IMG/VR virus record: IMGVR_UViG_3300047287_000420
Location: 1-64,000 of that record
Direction: 5' to 3' (one strand)
DNA length: 64,000 nt
From: a virus
Position numbers and translations under genes: made by a program. The notes beneath the pieces are model-generated. The model saw nothing but the letters and a program-made list of their open reading frames with translations. It ran no database searches and had not been told where the DNA came from. Of the stretch, positions 9,209-40,350 are shown piece after piece. Positions within the stretch are counted from its first letter, which is position 1. Each line of letters opens with the position of its first letter.

Positions 9209-9470
9209 CGGATACCACCACAGCTGATTCTTCTATATTACCGCGAATATTTAAAATATCGCCAGGCAGACATTCTAAAGTCATACACAACTTCTCTAGC
9301 ACATCAGGCGATGGTATGTAGTCTGGATCGGTATAAATCTTTCTTGTCGTGGTTGGCGATAAGTTAGCTTGCTTACTTAAAGCAAACGAAGACAGCCTCT
9401 TGGTATCGAGCAGCGTCTTAAGTGTATTTACTAGCTTGCCCGAAGCTGTGTGCGATGAATAAAAAGGCAC
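9198..9470 (-). CDS. XRE-type helix-turn-helix regulator
   Basis: 90 aa. Contains a Cro/C1-type HTH: LDTKRLSSFALSKQANLSPT, then TTRKIYTDPDYIPSPDVLEK with the typical downstream helix LCMTLECLPGDILNI. This is the small XRE fold often annotated as HTH_26. It lies at the head of the virion operon 9208-6043, overlapping its first gene by 11 bases, so it could regulate that operon or its own transcript. It is not accompanied by an integrase, which argues against a classical lysogeny repressor. Confidence 0.82.
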   Translation of the reverse strand: MPFYSSHTASGKLVNTLKTLLDTKRLSSFALSKQANLSPTTTRKIYTDPDYIPSPDVLEKLCMTLECLPGDILNIRGNIEESAVVVSGVF

Positions 9471-9516
9471 GACTCATACACCCGATTTGCACATAATACT
9501 TCGAGATTTAATAAAG

Positions 9517-10290
9517 TTAAAATCCCAGGTGCTTACGACGGCAGAACCCGAGATCAAACGTCGTGAAGCTAGTCGGGAACTCAGGGTTATTAAACGGATG
9601 TTTGTGGGTAGGTTCGTCGATGTGAGCCTGCCAGCCCTCACCCCACTTCATATGCAAATACCTTTTATTTAACTCGTGGGCGATGTGGATCGGCTGAGCC
9701 AGGGACGGGTCAGACCTCCAGGTCTGCGAGCCATCCGAATAATCGTTTTTACTAGTCCCATGAAAATAACCGTGCTCAAGGGATAGAACACGCTTAACAT
9801 CATCGTGTATAAAACGCATACCGTAATCCATATCCTCTGTGTAAGCAGGATATAAATTCTCATCAAATAATCCGTATCGCTGAACCATCCAGTCTTTCAA
9901 AAGAAAGATATCCCAACCACCGCCACAGCCGTGGACAATCCCAACATCCTCAGCCTGTGCTTTCTCGTTCATCTCCTGAAGAAAGCCAGCTTCAAACATC
10001 ACGTCATGGTTTGATATAACCCAATATGGTGCTTGCATAAAGCACTTAATGATTAAGTTCCAAGCACCAGAACAACCAACGTTCGCAGGCATGTGGGTCA
10101 CATGCACTCGCTTTACGAACGGGTTAGCCAACTTACGGACACTTTCTACCGCGTCCGTAATCTGACCCCGACCGTTGTTATTAAATACGACAAAGTTATC
10201 GACCGGGTAGTCGATGCTCATAAAGAGCCTATGGAGCCAATAAGGGTTATTAACGATTGCTGTGCCGAGCACAGGAATAGAAGAACTCAT
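9517..10290 (-). CDS. GT2-like glycosyltransferase
   Basis: 257 aa. GT-A features: the start VLGTAIVNNPYWLHRLFMSI, NVGCSGAWNLIIK, the substrate-site segment YWVISNHDVMFEAGFLQEM with HDV in the DXD position, and the acidic YTEDMDYGMRF motif typical of GT2 enzymes. Probably modifies a virion or host surface glycan. Transcribed with the neighbouring minus-strand genes; 12 bp separate it from the zinc-ribbon gene upstream. Confidence 0.8.
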   Translation of the reverse strand: MSSSIPVLGTAIVNNPYWLHRLFMSIDYPVDNFVVFNNNGRGQITDAVESVRKLANPFVKRVHVTHMPANVGCSGAWNLIIKCFMQAPYWVISNHDVMFEAGFLQEMNEKAQAEDVGIVHGCGGGWDIFLLKDWMVQRYGLFDENLYPAYTEDMDYGMRFIHDDVKRVLSLEHGYFHGTSKNDYSDGSQTWRSDPSLAQPIHIAHELNKRYLHMKWGEGWQAHIDEPTHKHPFNNPEFPTSFTTFDLGFCRRKHLGF

Positions 10291-10302
10291 TAGACAGCTG
10301 AT

Positions 10303-10764
10303 CTATGTCAGCATGTTATCAGAAAATATCGATTGGAACAGGTTGCATCCTTTAGCATCTTCAGTCTGAGCTTCGGGTATATCGAAAGAACAACCGTAAG
10401 GTGTCAGGTGTGCACAATCAGAACAAGGAATCCCCTCAGGCGCCACGGAGATCGGCTCTAGTTGTACAAGTTGTTGTACAGGTTGTTGTACAGGTTGATG
10501 GAGACTATTAAAGACCTGCTCCAACTGATTGAACTTACTGCGAAGAGTGCGCAGTTCTTCATAAGCCTCAGACGTCAATTCATACGTTGTGTACTTGTGA
10601 TCACACCCAAAGCAGCTATACCGCCTTCTGGTGCCTTCAAATATCTTCCTGCTTTCTTTTACTTTAGCTTTGAGCTCACCGCATAAAGGACATTCTTTTG
10701 TTTTGTGGAATTCGTAGAGACCCTGAAGTTGATTGTTGTCGTGCTTTTTCTTTTGAGGCGCCAT
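10303..10764 (-). CDS. Zinc-ribbon protein with NrdR-like N-terminal domain
   Basis: 153 aa from the ATG at 10764; a longer reading would begin inside the tRNA-Leu gene and is rejected. Residues ~20-57 hold two CxxC knuckles (ECPLCGELK and SCFGCDHKYTTYE) arranged like the NrdR zinc ribbon, including the RRRYSC and TTYE landmarks, but the NrdR ATP-cone is absent. A Gln/Pro/Val repeat (QPVQQPVQQLVQ) joins it to a second Cys cluster (CSDCAHLTPYGC). Likely nucleic-acid binding. It begins 15 bp after the tRNA gene. Confidence 0.75.
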   Translation of the reverse strand: MAPQKKKHDNNQLQGLYEFHKTKECPLCGELKAKVKESRKIFEGTRRRYSCFGCDHKYTTYELTSEAYEELRTLRSKFNQLEQVFNSLHQPVQQPVQQLVQLEPISVAPEGIPCSDCAHLTPYGCSFDIPEAQTEDAKGCNLFQSIFSDNMLT

Positions 10765-10778
10765 TAGATGTTCGTTAG

Positions 10779-10860
10779 TGCTGCAGGTGGGACTCGAACC
10801 CACATGAGTGAAACTCAGCGCATTTTAAGTGCGCAGCGTATACCATTCCGCCACTGCAGC
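10779..10860 (-). tRNA. tRNA-Leu (UAA anticodon)
   Basis: 82 nt on the complement. The acceptor stem is a perfect 7 bp (10854-10860 with 10780-10786), the anticodon stem is GCGCA/TGCGC with loop CTTAAAA giving anticodon UAA, there is a long class II variable arm, and the T-loop is GTTCGAGTC. The 3' CCA is not encoded. Fits a leucine tRNA that reads UUA. Confidence 0.93.
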
Positions 10861-16657: not shown

Positions 16658-17511
16658 TGTGCGTAATCTGTAAAACCAGCAAATTCTTCAGCCAGTCTTT
16701 CCTTACGACCTAAACGATCCTTGATCAGGTTCTGCGCTAAGACGGGATTCTTAGAAACCCATTCACGCATATTGTCCCCAGTCATCCCTCCGGTGACGCC
16801 AAGCTCAATCATGCTGCGCATAAGCTCAGCGGTCCGTTCCTGGTTTGCGGCTTTTGCAAGCATCTCAGTTTCCACGGCCTTCCTGATTTGCTCTTGAGAT
16901 TGAGGAACAGGGCTGGCTGGGACAGGCCGACTAACAGGTGCATGAGATTCCTCGAGCGGACGTCGGGATGCGGGTGCGACAGCGTTGCGTTGGGGCTGAG
17001 GAGCAGCAGTTTCAGCTTCAGCTACGGTGGGCTTAAACCGATCAATACGGTAATCACCAACTAATACAGTCCCGTCGCTGTACATCACAGGACGCGGGGG
17101 GCCATAATCATCAGCAATATAAGTATTAGGAGGACGGCGAGCCAGAGACGCTTCAAAAGCTTTCTGCTTTTCGATACGAGAGATCATATCCTCTCGCGAC
17201 TTGTACCCTAAATTCCGCCAATTTCCATACTGATCATCACTCTGAGGCGTGCTTCCGGCTAAACCAGCCGTCATCATCAGAGGGCCAGACGTTAAATAGA
17301 GACCAACGTCAGCAAGTTTTTTAACAGGGTTCTCCTCAGGCAGAACAGCGCTGACGATAGCTCCACCGATCTCAGGCTTAAAACCAATCATCGGACGCAC
17401 GAAAGGCGCATCCATAGTTTTAAGGGCTTGCCCAGCTAAACGTTTCAGACCAGAGGTTCCCTGGGAAGCCGCTCGAGTAACAGTATTCCTGAGATCCTCG
17501 AACCAGCCCAT
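16654..17511 (-). CDS. Virion-type hypothetical protein
   Basis: 285 aa. Amphipathic N-terminus (WFEDLRNTVTRAASQGTSGL), hydrophobic patch IGGAIVSAVLPEENPV and LYLTSGPLMMTAGLAGS, Pro-rich central linker, helical C-terminus. Pattern (membrane-active head, linker, coiled tail) matches the internal-virion-like proteins at 6570 and 7328. No catalytic motif. Confidence 0.7.
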   Translation of the reverse strand: MGWFEDLRNTVTRAASQGTSGLKRLAGQALKTMDAPFVRPMIGFKPEIGGAIVSAVLPEENPVKKLADVGLYLTSGPLMMTAGLAGSTPQSDDQYGNWRNLGYKSREDMISRIEKQKAFEASLARRPPNTYIADDYGPPRPVMYSDGTVLVGDYRIDRFKPTVAEAETAAPQPQRNAVAPASRRPLEESHAPVSRPVPASPVPQSQEQIRKAVETEMLAKAANQERTAELMRSMIELGVTGGMTGDNMREWVSKNPVLAQNLIKDRLGRKERLAEEFAGFTDYAQ

Positions 17512-17630
17512 TTAACCTAATTATCCCTGAGAACTAATTATAAGCCAGCTATAAAACCAAATAAATAGGGGCCGTTAGGCCCCAGTAGTCCCCTTGTCCA
17601 ACGTCCCTAGGCAGGAACTCTGACATTCTA

Positions 17631-17704
17631 GTCGCGAGGGACGGATTTGAACCGCCCATTTCTGAGCTGTCTGCTCAGCGTTCTACCCCTTGAACTACTC
17701 ACGC
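17631..17704 (-). tRNA. Aberrant tRNA-like gene (anticodon position reads GAC)
   Basis: On the complement: D-arm TAGTTCAAGGGGTAGAAC, perfect 5-bp anticodon stem CTGAG/CTCAG, T-arm GGCGG-TTCAAAT-CCGTC. The loop CAGACAG has A where U33 should be and would give anticodon GAC (valine). The acceptor ends pair over only 6 bp (CGTGAG/CTCGCG) and only if one extra base is allowed after the T-stem. Either a decayed tRNA or one with a non-tRNA job. Confidence 0.55.
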
Positions 17705-17737
17705 AGCCCGATGCTAAGAGCAGAGCGGGAACACGAA

Positions 17738-17899
17738 TCACTTTAGCGTGGTGTTCTCGTGCGAATAACGAGGATCTATTACCACGCCTCGATAAACACA
17801 CCGAGGGCTTGCTTCACGGGTCGTTTTTTCCCACTCGAGCACCTCTTTCTGGTGCTCAATGGTGTCGTACTGTTTACCGCGATACGTTAAAACAGTCAT
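17738..17899 (-). CDS. DUF4278-like small protein
   Basis: 53 aa from the ATG at 17899. Begins MTVLTYRGKQYDTIEHQ and ends with CVYRGVVIDPRYSHENTT: the two YRG motifs, one at each end, match the DUF4278 family common in cyanobacteria and their phages. Function of the family is unknown. It lies 33 bp upstream of the tRNA-like gene on the same strand. Confidence 0.68.
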   Translation of the reverse strand: MTVLTYRGKQYDTIEHQKEVLEWEKTTREASPRCVYRGVVIDPRYSHENTTLK

Positions 17900-18031
17900 G
17901 GGTGTCCTGTAACTTCCAATATTGTAAAAATTGGTAGCGCTTGATACTGTATTACTGCTATACAAAACACATATTAAACTGTTAAACCCAGACTTCAGTC
18001 GTAGAATTTATGTGTACTCTGCACTCCTCCC

Positions 18032-18250
18032 GTGGCAAGGGAGTGGAACACACCTGTTCGCGAGCCCTGGAACGGGATGATTAAAGCATCACTGGATGCT
18101 ATAGACCGACATAACGACCACTACTTAAAAACAAACAACTATAAACACCTAGTAGCTGCACACTATTTAAGACAGTATGTGTCGTATGTAAAAGATATGA
18201 TAATAGAAATTGAAAAAAATGATTATTTAGATAACATCACTACCACCTAA
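18032..18250 (+). CDS. Small hypothetical protein
   Basis: 72 aa, GTG start. Sequence WNTPVREPWNGMIKASLDAI with later HLVAAHYLRQYVSYVKDMII is mostly helical. Overlaps the convergent gene at 18227 by 24 bases. No motif with known function. Confidence 0.6.
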   Translation: MAREWNTPVREPWNGMIKASLDAIDRHNDHYLKTNNYKHLVAAHYLRQYVSYVKDMIIEIEKNDYLDNITTT

Positions 18251-18790
18251 CGGAGATGGACCGTAATAAGGATTACCGCCGGGTAGCGGCGTTCCTTGAC
18301 GATCTCGATTAAATAAATTCAGAAAGCCTTCTCGATAGGAACGATTAAATCGGTTTGGAATTTCATCAACAACTTCGCCAGTACTTTCCAAAATTTCCTG
18401 CCATCGTGGTTTTTGATAAGCTCCTTGTGCAGGTCGTGGAGCAGCTTGAGCTAAAGGACTTTGAGGGCTTGTGAGTAAGAAACGATCTCGGTCTAAAAAT
18501 TCACCTGGATAAGCAGGACCTGGCTTACGAAACTCATCTAAGTTAAGTTTATTGGGGTCAACGCGAAAACCAGGCGTAGGGTTTTGCTGATTGATCATAT
18601 ATTCAAAAAATTCTTGCTCACGAGGATCACCTAACTGATTAGGAATATTCAACCCTTTGTTTAAATACTGCTCCAAGAAGGAGTACCGGTCTACTTGCCC
18701 TGAATAATCGGGAGTGACACCATACCCACGCGGTGCGTCAGTGTGCCCAAAGACATCAGGAGCGTAGTAAGACACCTTTATATAAGGCAC
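18227..18790 (-). CDS. Virion-type hypothetical protein
   Basis: 187 aa, rich in Pro, Tyr, Asn and Gly; ends GNPYYGPSPLGGSDVI. Contains SFLEQYLNKGLNIPNQLGDP and a central FRKPGPAYPGEFLDRDRFLL. Disordered, structural-type composition, no enzyme motif. Confidence 0.68.
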   Translation of the reverse strand: MPYIKVSYYAPDVFGHTDAPRGYGVTPDYSGQVDRYSFLEQYLNKGLNIPNQLGDPREQEFFEYMINQQNPTPGFRVDPNKLNLDEFRKPGPAYPGEFLDRDRFLLTSPQSPLAQAAPRPAQGAYQKPRWQEILESTGEVVDEIPNRFNRSYREGFLNLFNRDRQGTPLPGGNPYYGPSPLGGSDVI

Positions 18791-19158: not shown

Positions 19159-19240
19159 TCGATTGCACGAACCTTTCTACCAGCTTAGGTGTCTTTAAAA
19201 GGTTTAAACCGCGTCCACGTGGCGCCGAAAATTTTTTTGA

Positions 19241-19313
19241 TGGGGGTCGCGAGGATCGAACTCGCCTGAAATCGATTATGAGTCGACCGCTTTCACCAGA
19301 TAGCTAGACCCCC
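19241..19313 (-). tRNA. tRNA-Met or tRNA-Ile2 (CAU anticodon)
   Basis: 73 nt on the complement. Perfect acceptor stem GGGGGTC/GACCCCC, anticodon stem GTCGA/TCGAT with loop CTCATAA (anticodon CAU), T-arm GCGAG-TTCGATC-CTCGC. The G1-C72 pair excludes an initiator tRNA. CAU can be elongator Met or, after lysidine modification, Ile reading AUA; identity cannot be settled by eye. No encoded CCA. Confidence 0.93.
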
Positions 19314-19322
19314 AGCCCTGCC

Positions 19323-19472: not shown

Positions 19473-19501
19473 TTGTTGTATCTTACTCTATTGTTTATTG
19501 T
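19473..19501 (+). promoter_or_regulatory. Weak promoter candidate for the structured RNA
   Basis: TTGTTG (19473-19478), 17-bp spacer, TATTGT (19496-19501). Weak match, but it is the best arrangement in the AT-rich 19470-19560 stretch before the structured region and would start RNA near 19508. Confidence 0.25.
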
Positions 19502-19521
19502 TTACATACAGCACTGTTTAA

Positions 19522-19538
19522 TTCTTTCTACGGTCATC
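19522..19538 (+). repeat. Direct repeat copy 1 (TTCTTTCTACGGTCATC)
   Basis: 17-base sequence, repeated exactly at 20429-20445; its last 13 bases recur at 23871-23883. Copy 1 sits just before the structured RNA, in what would be its 5' leader. Confidence 0.85.
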
Positions 19539-19559
19539 AGGGGGTAGTTCTTTATTCTT

Positions 19560-20610
19560 ATTAAGATCTGCTCACCGTGTGCTACCATCGCGCGCGTCGC
19601 GGGCGCGGTTCCATCTCTTGCGCACTGAGCGCACACAGTGTGCCAATCCGCAATCCGGTTGCAAGGGGTTGACCTAGTGGCCTCGGCGTGGTGATGATGG
19701 GCACAAGCCGATCGGGAAGCCGAGAGGCGGAACCTGGACAATCCGACAGCACCACGCCAGCCCCGGCGCGATCCGGCGGTTGATCAGCCAAGGCCTGCGA
19801 ACCTACGCGTTCCCCCTTGTGCCGATCGCCAACCCGTCACACCATCGTTCCGACAGGCTCCGCATCATGCTGTAGGATTCCAGCAACGGCCCGAGAGGGT
19901 CGACGACATAGGACAGCCGTCCGTCAAGACTGACGCCCACCAGGGTGAGAGCAGACCCATAAGGGATCGCACCTGGTAGTAGTGGCTGGCAGTTAGGCGG
20001 GCGGGGACCGATACCCTCAGATGCTAGTAATCAGAGGCGGGGTGTGCCCACAAGCTCTCGCGAGCCTAAGCCCCTTGCCCCCACTAGAATCTCCCGCTCA
20101 CCCGACGATGGCCTGCGAGTCACGTTAAGGGAGGCCTGGAGCTAGTGGCTTGCCCGAGAGGCCCTTGGTCCCATGCTCAAAGTATTTATCTTTGGCAGGT
20201 TGTCGATAGTTAAGTCCCCAGACTTGCGAGCTTGTGACTAACGCAGTAGCCCAGTGAGAATCAGATTCCCGGCTATTTGTATCGTTGCAACCTTTATAGA
20301 TCTGGTGTGGCCTGACGCAATAGCCCGTCCTACCCAGCTCGGGCACAATTTAACTTTCTCAAACGCAGGGATGCTGTGTCCAGAGTATCTGTCCCTCACA
20401 CAGGTACGCTGGACAAAGCCCGTAGGAGTTCTTTCTACGGTCATCGTCTCTGCAGCCAAGCCCGCAAGCCTTTAATTTTGCAGGTTTGGCACAATTTAAT
20501 AGCTTTTGTGCGCATAATGTGCGCCATAACTGACTTTAATTTGAGGTCAGTTTCCCGATTTCACTCTTTAGTGGGGCCTGGTATTACCTACCGGGCTCTA
20601 CTTAAAGGTG
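19560..20610 (+). ncRNA. Candidate giant structured noncoding RNA (GOLLD/ROOL-like in size and context)
   Basis: About 1.05 kb with no convincing gene on either strand, GC-richer than its flanks, next to a tRNA. Complementary pairs: 19587-19593/19603-19609; 19685-19693/19750-19758 (9 bp); 19700-19707/19815-19822 (8 bp, crossing the previous stem: a pseudoknot); 19887-19892/19897-19902 closed by a GAGA tetraloop; 20081-20087/20142-20148; 20177-20182/20190-20195; 20212-20216/20221-20225; 20245-20251/20271-20277; 20377-20383/20409-20415 enclosing 20385-20392/20400-20407; 20420-20425/20435-20440; 20528-20534/20546-20552; 20576-20582/20590-20596. Six of these stems contain a G-T pair in the plus sense, which would be A-C mismatches in the complement, so the RNA is read from the plus strand. 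GOLLD and ROOL RNAs are large phage-associated RNAs, GOLLD often beside tRNAs. Membership is inference; ends are approximate. Confidence 0.72.
20429..20445 (+). repeat. Direct repeat copy 2 (TTCTTTCTACGGTCATC)
   Basis: Exact 17-base copy of 19522-19538, 907 bp downstream. Here CTACGG (20435-20440) can pair with CCGTAG (20420-20425) to make a 6-bp hairpin; CCGTAG could pair equally with copy 1. Confidence 0.85.
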
Positions 20611-40290: not shown

Positions 40291-40319
40291 TGAATTAGTC
40301 GTCAAAAGACACCACAAAG

Positions 40320-40346
40320 GGACGCTGCAATAGCGTCCTTTTTTTT
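40320..40346 (+). terminator. Rho-independent terminator
   Basis: Perfect 7-bp stem GGACGCT/AGCGTCC (40320-40326 with 40332-40338), loop GCAAT, followed by eight T residues (40339-40346). Ends the polymerase/SSB operon. Confidence 0.93.
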
Positions 40347-40350
40347 GTGA

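Follow-up and report, generated by a model that had tools for sequence, protein, structure and literature searches.

Does a tRNA-shaped gene with A instead of U at position 33 of its anticodon loop encode a tRNA, the remains of one, or an RNA with a different task? The question is raised by a minus-strand element in the 64,000-nucleotide stretch of viral DNA analysed here (the window; positions 1 to 64,000 of the 84,285-base IMG/VR record IMGVR_UViG_3300047287_000420), for which the earlier note, made from the letters alone, offered two possibilities: that the gene has recently decayed, or that it is selected for a role outside translation such as tRNA mimicry or the decoying of a nuclease.

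Fold and surroundings of the window element

ARAGORN returns three tRNA predictions in the window, all on the minus strand, including (i) Leu(UAA) at 10778-10860, (ii) Met(CAU) at 19239-19314, and (iii) Val(GAC), which corresponds to the element under study (Table 1). The Rfam tRNA family RF00005 recognizes the latter at 17632-17703 with 35.9 bits, above the gathering score of 29, and the other two with 60.5 and 52.8 bits. The loop CAGACAG with A at position 33, as first read from the letters, is confirmed by the sequence and by the ARAGORN cloverleaf call; the loops of the other two window tRNAs read CUUAAAA and CUCAUAA. When the element strand is folded alone, its minimum-energy structure is the complete cloverleaf (-28.9 kcal/mol, z -3.2), a stability equalled by 2/200 shuffles, and model R1, which counts the window among its building sequences, assigns it 97.4 bits.

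The architecture comprises a 6-bp acceptor stem stacked on a 6-bp T-stem; the RF00005 alignment requires a gap in the acceptor. The one-base shift of the acceptor stem described in the earlier note is indeed observed, but it reflects a 6 + 6 bp layout kept in relatives and not a slip. Positions C32 and G38 are able to form a Watson-Crick pair, formed in the predicted fold and leaving a 5-nt loop, and CCA is not encoded at the 3' end.

Table 1. Coordinates of the window element, its arms and neighbours, and of the matches adjacent to stop codons in T7-like cyanophage genomes
Feature	Position	Strand	Basis or remark
tRNA-like element, four-arm cloverleaf without U33	17631..17705	(-)	ARAGORN, RF00005, MFE fold, model R1, covariation
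Acceptor 5' strand CGUGAG	17698..17703	(-)	pairs with 17633-17638 (CUCGCG)
D-arm GUUC/GAAC, GG in D-loop	17680..17695	(-)	sequence and alignment
Anticodon-like arm CUGAG-CAGACAG-CUCAG, A33 at 17672	17662..17678	(-)	sequence, alignment, fold
6-bp T-arm GGGCGG-UUCAAAU-CCGUCC	17639..17657	(-)	alignment, covariation, fold
Acceptor 3' strand CUCGCG, then unpaired A 17632 (discriminator position)	17633..17638	(-)	sequence, alignment
Intrinsic-terminator-like hairpin GGGGCCUAACGGCCCC + UAUUUAUUU	17568..17583	(-)	47 nt downstream of the element
Small ORF upstream of the element	17738..17965	(-)	weak DUF4278 match, E 0.006, below curated cut-off
Stop-codon-adjacent matches	S-SBP1 929, 1325; S-TIP37 986, 1441, 20516; P-GSP1 12661; Syn5 2699		

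The 851-base region around the element contains 3 terminator-like sites, with 0.7 expected from shuffles, and the sequence of the terminator-like hairpin is identical in two related loci (L003 and L010) and altered in two others (L019 and L020). On the 3' side of the element, the segment 17568-17625 (-) combines a conserved stretch, GUUCCUGCCUAGGGACGUUGGACAAGGGGAC, with this hairpin; a stretch similar to GUUCCUGCCUAGGGACGUUGGACAAGGGGAC also occurs in L031 and L032, both devoid of the element. Upstream of the small ORF, the segment 18000-18070 (-) contains a hairpin, CUCCCUUGCCACGGGAG, found as well in L003 and partly in L024, for which Rfam gives no match above the cut-off in window positions 17500-18300; the assignment of the small-ORF leader as a Glutamine-II riboswitch was dropped, the Rfam match being absent. 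A long stretch at 19500-20400, with small ORFs only on both strands, lies upstream of the tRNA-Met gene.

A window protein matches 45 phage records, all from Synechococcus phages, at 60-80% identity, and from such phage protein matches we infer a Synechococcus-type host. A distant blastn comparison of window positions 17000-18300 with named phages found no match. A tmRNA was recognized neither by Rfam, in the window (at gathering; positions 17500-18300 at E up to 5) or in L043 and L090-L095 (E up to 0.1), nor by ARAGORN in the window or L090-L095.

Conservation of the element in two groups of phages

Pattern and protein scans disclose the element in 8 further contigs, corresponding to 7 further distinct sequences, so that the window family comprises 8 distinct sequences in nine contigs, the window counted in. 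The earlier note had looked to close relatives for intact U33 versions of a gene degraded here; all 8 sequences carry A33, none carries U33, and no U33 form was seen in the relatives found. The loops read CAGACAG, CAAATAG, CAGATAG, or CAAACAG, with C32, A33, A35, A37, and G38 constant and positions 34 and 36 changing by transitions, which gives the nominal anticodons GAC, GAU, AAU, and AAC. All 8 preserve a cloverleaf with GG in the D-loop and a UUC-type T-loop. ARAGORN, applied to 188 sequence sources, reports 21 distinct tRNAs, 11 with U33 and 10 without it; the latter are the 8 window-family sequences and two odd tRNA-likes, L030 and L120. These two (L030:1950-2022, in a relative of the window phage, and L120:1302-1374, in a T7-like cyanophage contig) represent a second tRNA-like kind, with GACAA in the anticodon-like region and no U33. 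Among 15 loci reached through relatives of the small upstream ORF, 7 display the A33 element, 1 the odd tRNA-like of L030, and 7 no tRNA prediction at that place; in L031 and L032, the ORF and the post-element stretch are recognizable and the element is absent.

Three more loci matched by the pattern scan, L040, L041, and L043, are without blastn similarity to the window. The gene content of L043 is that of a T7-like phage (gene names by inspection); its capsid protein is 82% identical to that of S-TIP37, and the element lies between a psbA-like ORF (9252-10310) and the capsid ORF (10538). Compared to the window, 3/6 acceptor pairs differ, every one of them compensated, and three T-stem pairs are altered, two of them on both strands and the third on one strand only, while the D-stem, the U.G third acceptor pair (invariant in 10/10 aligned sequences), and most of the anticodon arm are unchanged. 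Both distinct sequences of these T7-like full elements have A33; the loop of L040 reads CACAUAG and those of the other relatives CARAYAG, and in L040 and L043 the D-loop GG is absent and the T-loop is of the UGC type. Model R2, built from the 8 window-family sequences only and run on 52 loci, retrieves L043 with 67.4 bits (E 9e-18), L040, L041, and L108 with 62.1 bits (E 4e-16), and L162 with 38.2 bits (E 1e-8), followed by the odd tRNA-likes L030, L120, and L121 (24 bits) and a true tRNA in L054 (20 bits, E 0.005). The anticodon-like arm is nearly the same in two groups of phages without blastn similarity, with acceptor and T-stems altered.

Alignment of the 10 diverged sequences (8 window-family and 2 T7-like) shows stem pairing in 210/210 cells, with 8/21 stem pairs changed on both sides at the same time and 24 doubly changed cells, compared to a shuffle mean of 7.8; sliding the partner columns by 1-3 lowers pairing to 41-55%. 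Within the window family alone, 168/168 cells are paired and 9 are doubly changed, compared to 3.3 in shuffles, whereas the 3/21 pairs changed on both sides do not exceed the shuffles, 261/500 of which reach that number. The element also outlasts its surroundings: between L028 and the window, 68/75 of its bases are kept, compared to 28/58 aligned bases of the 60-base 3' flank.

A working tRNA for valine or isoleucine with an unusual anticodon loop would agree with the cloverleaf, the elbow GG, the canonical T-loop, the discriminator A, and the scores of the window and L003 above the Rfam tRNA cut-off; nevertheless, these two are the only ones of the eight to pass it, L010, L019, and L020 failing at gathering and L024, L028, L033, and L034 remaining unlisted at E up to 1. 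In addition, U33 is found in 0/10 distinct full elements, C32 and G38 are able to pair in 10/10, five nominal anticodons occur within one orthologous scaffold (GAC, GAU, AAU, AAC, and CAU), and the 7-bp acceptor and 5-bp T-stem of a tRNA are replaced by 6 + 6 bp, with standard pairs in 10/10, all of which makes this reading very unlikely. Judged from the sequences, the anticodon loop is not suited to ordinary decoding, in view of the missing U33, the pairable C32-G38, and the drift of the anticodon. Recent decay, which the departure of acceptor stem and loop from a normal tRNA had suggested, is scarcely credible, as the deviations are common to 8 distinct sequences, the stems are fully paired and compensated, and the element is kept where the L028 flank has diverged: the element is no tRNA in decay.

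The alternative of a chance hairpin was likewise discarded: 54 viral stretches match GTTCN{5,11}GAACGNNNNGCANAYAGC, and 4/4 anticodon-stem pairs are formed in 11, all of them homologues, compared to 0-3 pairs in the other 43. As to a host origin, a first pattern scan of bacterial and archaeal genomes gave 0 stretches, and a second gave 31, none from a cyanobacterium by title and none with all five stem pairs. It is nearly certain that the element is a conserved non-decoding tRNA-like RNA.

Short acceptor and T-arm elements before capsid genes and at gene junctions

The pre-capsid set comprises the best 80 of 579 capsid loci, 18 named stretches, and L043, altogether 99 regions, of which 91 were scanned after removal of 6 too short and 2 duplicates. 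By script, an acceptor + T-arm tRNA-like element is present in 48/91 of these regions, compared to 10/1820 shuffled regions, and an alternative hairpin with apical CACCUCAGAGUCGGA in 40/91, including L093, L094, and L095; since the loci share phylogeny, these counts, as well as those from whole genomes, are not independent events. The script never found the two together, the element occurring in 0/40 regions with the CACCUCAGAGUCGGA hairpin, and only L143, L144, and L162 contain neither by script; by eye, L143 and L162 carry elements outside the script limits and L144 one further upstream.

In 42/48 pre-capsid elements the T-stem has 6 bp and the acceptor 5 or 6, a stack of 11-12 bp comparable to the 6 and 6 of the window and the full elements, likewise with a T-loop; in 43/48, the spacing from acceptor to T-stem is 22 nt or less, too short for a D-arm and an anticodon arm. 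After removal of identical copies, 40 of the 48 elements remain, and the first five bases of their acceptors occur in 20 versions; A follows the acceptor in 28/40 and a purine stands at +1 in 39/40, which counts in favour of the processing model discussed below. Two features count against that model: (i) the acceptor of the window family begins with C, not with the purine of 39/40 distinct pre-capsid elements, and (ii) the class with a UGC T-loop lacks a clear elbow partner. A rule linking the UUC T-loop to an elbow GG was only partly clean, D-side GG[UC] occurring in 16/16 UUC elements and in 13/32 UGC elements, among related sequences. L120 and L121 contain a complete but different pre-capsid tRNA-like that resembles L030, with GACAA in the anticodon-like region and U33 absent according to ARAGORN.

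Model R1 scores the short elements mostly at 11-24 bits, and 51/52 of its matches share the strand of the capsid gene; as bacterial genomes yield chance scores of up to 18 bits, the claim is carried by architecture and position and not by score. Two further R1 matches lie upstream of psbA in L091 (E 0.0003) and close to where L150 begins (E 0.0001), and R2 found few of the short elements, mostly as partial T-arm matches. The short elements are tied to the window kind by architecture and may descend from it.

A conserved leader, discerned by eye, precedes the capsid gene and follows the tRNA-like element or the hairpin that replaces it (L043:10413-10470 and matching pre-capsid places; approximately AUUGGCNUUGGCCC-hairpin-GGAUACC...GCCGUCUAGACGGUGGGAUAGACCAC). 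It occurs in many regions among the 66 of 80 capsid loci viewed, with L104, L105, and L144 differing, and has no Rfam match in seven T7-like sources. Between psbA and the capsid gene, L091, L092, L093, and L095 display a Glutamine-II riboswitch (RF01704; Rfam for L091, L093, and L095, by eye for L092), upstream of a small ORF that contains a YRG motif.

A strict scan of six T7-like cyanophage genomes detects 15 sense matches and 0 antisense, with 0.95 expected from shuffles on both strands, distributed as P-SSP7 3, S-SBP1 3, S-TIP37 5, P-GSP1 2, Syn5 2, and S-B28 0; T7 and the Pelagibacter phage HTVC019P give 0. By annotation, 13/15 matches are located in gene gaps, 4 of which overlap the upstream gene end by 6-16 nt; the remaining 2/15, inside S-TIP37 genes, count against the processing model. 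The 13 comprise 5 pre-capsid elements and 8 that lie amid small early genes or ahead of the first gene annotated, the P-GSP1 element being assigned by its place after talC. Five of the six genomes thus display transcribed-strand, intergenic elements, also among the early genes, and none of their five records annotates an RNA feature at the 13 gap places. With looser settings, applied to four of these genomes, two antisense matches appeared in S-SBP1, and in the window the strict scan returns, besides the element, one other match, terminator-hairpin-like, at 40303-40347 (+); both observations likewise count against the model.

Putative function and comparison with known systems

The preferred reading, to which a probability of about 0.5 is given, is that of a putative processing signal that mimics tRNA for host RNase P and/or RNase Z. 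The element would be cut out of, or would trim, polycistronic phage mRNA through RNase P on its 5' side and/or RNase Z on its 3' side. Before the capsid gene, such tRNA punctuation would result in a capsid mRNA whose 5' end is both defined and structured. The element of the window phage lies downstream of the small ORF and upstream of a terminator-like hairpin, so that its product may be a small RNA set free or a 3' end; there, the punctuation would fix where the small-ORF mRNA ends in 3' direction and free a short tRNA-like RNA.

All forms share the acceptor/T-arm half, the decoding half being variable or absent, and what is kept is the half read by tRNA-maturation enzymes, namely the 12-bp acceptor/T-stem stack and the T-loop and, in the window family, also the D-loop GG. 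According to passages of PMC11143913, RNase P cuts acceptor-stem/T-stem/T-loop model substrates at the canonical site and also acts on several RNAs and mRNAs of phages, and a passage of PMC10989914 describes both RNase P and RNase Z as encoded by cyanobacteria. Transcribed-strand elements between genes, together with an RNase P that needs little beyond the acceptor/T-arm half, therefore look like processing signals. Against this, the terminator-like hairpin 3' of the window element leaves no downstream gene to separate. The element is also dispensable, because 40/91 regions use the other hairpin, S-B28 gives 0 matches, and L031 and L032 lack it. In addition, a pure processing signal needs no CARAYAG loop, which is kept in very different phages and may provide a second contact.

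A free trans-acting tRNA mimic would persist as a stable small RNA, its CARAYAG loop being the contact through which it occupies a tRNA-binding protein of the host (a nuclease, toxin, synthetase, or EF-Tu). The near identity of the anticodon-like arm across blastn-dissimilar groups, while acceptor and T-stems changed, and the position of the window element ahead of a terminator-like hairpin are consistent with such a role, which is nonetheless unlikely: 43/48 pre-capsid elements have no room for an anticodon arm, the variation at positions 34 and 36 means that the elements do not mimic one particular anticodon of the host, and the matches in T7-like genomes lie at gene junctions. The selected non-translational role suggested in the earlier note is thus upheld by conservation and covariation, but its decoy variant, by way of the anticodon or a nuclease, conflicts with the short pre-capsid elements, and a nuclease decoy is considered unlikely. 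Alternatively, an uncut cis control element, in which the fold at a gene end recruits a tRNA-binding factor of the host or stops exonucleases and so acts on translation or stability, would account for the 7/13 gap matches that start 17 nt or less from, or overlap, an annotated stop codon (Table 1) and for the second conserved leader seen by eye after the pre-capsid elements; a mere roadblock, however, needs neither a tRNA-type T-loop nor an 11-12 bp stack, and this reading too seems improbable.

Extended to cyanophages at large, the processing reading becomes a tentative proposal, with the odds slightly against it: these phages may punctuate polycistronic mRNA with a family of tRNA-mimicking RNAs, some with an anticodon arm and some lacking it, the host tRNA-maturation enzymes taking the part that RNase III plays in T7 and the CARAYAG form having spread between dissimilar phage groups. 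If true, it would explain how T7-like cyanophages cut their long transcripts and the role of the conserved RNA before the capsid gene. It would also place in P-SSP7, Syn5, S-TIP37, S-SBP1, and P-GSP1 an RNA family absent from the records checked, because tRNA finders miss the elements or call them tRNA; phage 'tRNA genes' without U33 should accordingly not count as tRNAs in codon-usage arguments. Rfam 15, applied to seven T7-like sources (E up to 0.1), matched the Glutamine-II riboswitch alone, in 3/7; therefore, the cyanophage motifs manA, wcaG, and PhotoRC-II, listed in a passage of Weinberg et al. 2010 (PMC2864571), did not match there. No Rfam family for the elements was found, nor a description of them in the open-access literature, subscription papers lying outside this scope.

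Several known systems resemble the elements in part. Compared to the tRNAs of RF00005, the window element preserves the cloverleaf, T-loop, D-loop GG, and a score above the cut-off, but differs in the lack of U33, the 5-nt loop, the 6/6 stack, the drift of the anticodon, and the absence of 6/7 other family sequences from the matches. In mitochondrial tRNA punctuation, working tRNAs lie between the genes of polycistronic RNA; the cyanophage elements are likewise tRNA-shaped, intergenic, and on the transcribed strand, but lack decoding features and reside in phage genomes. In phage T7, intergenic RNA structures, early genes included, are cut by RNase III into separate mRNAs; T7 relies on other structures and another enzyme, and its genome gave no match in the strict scan. 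RNase P model substrates, in the passages of PMC11143913 concerned, display a half-tRNA architecture like that of the short pre-capsid elements and of the half kept in the window element, whereas the cyanophage elements are phage-encoded and intergenic, with a 6-bp T-stem, no CCA, and a cleavage that is predicted. Finally, the C4 antisense RNA of P1 and P7, an antisense regulator and thus a different RNA from different phages, offers the parallel of a non-tRNA phage RNA processed by host RNase P (likewise from a passage of PMC11143913).
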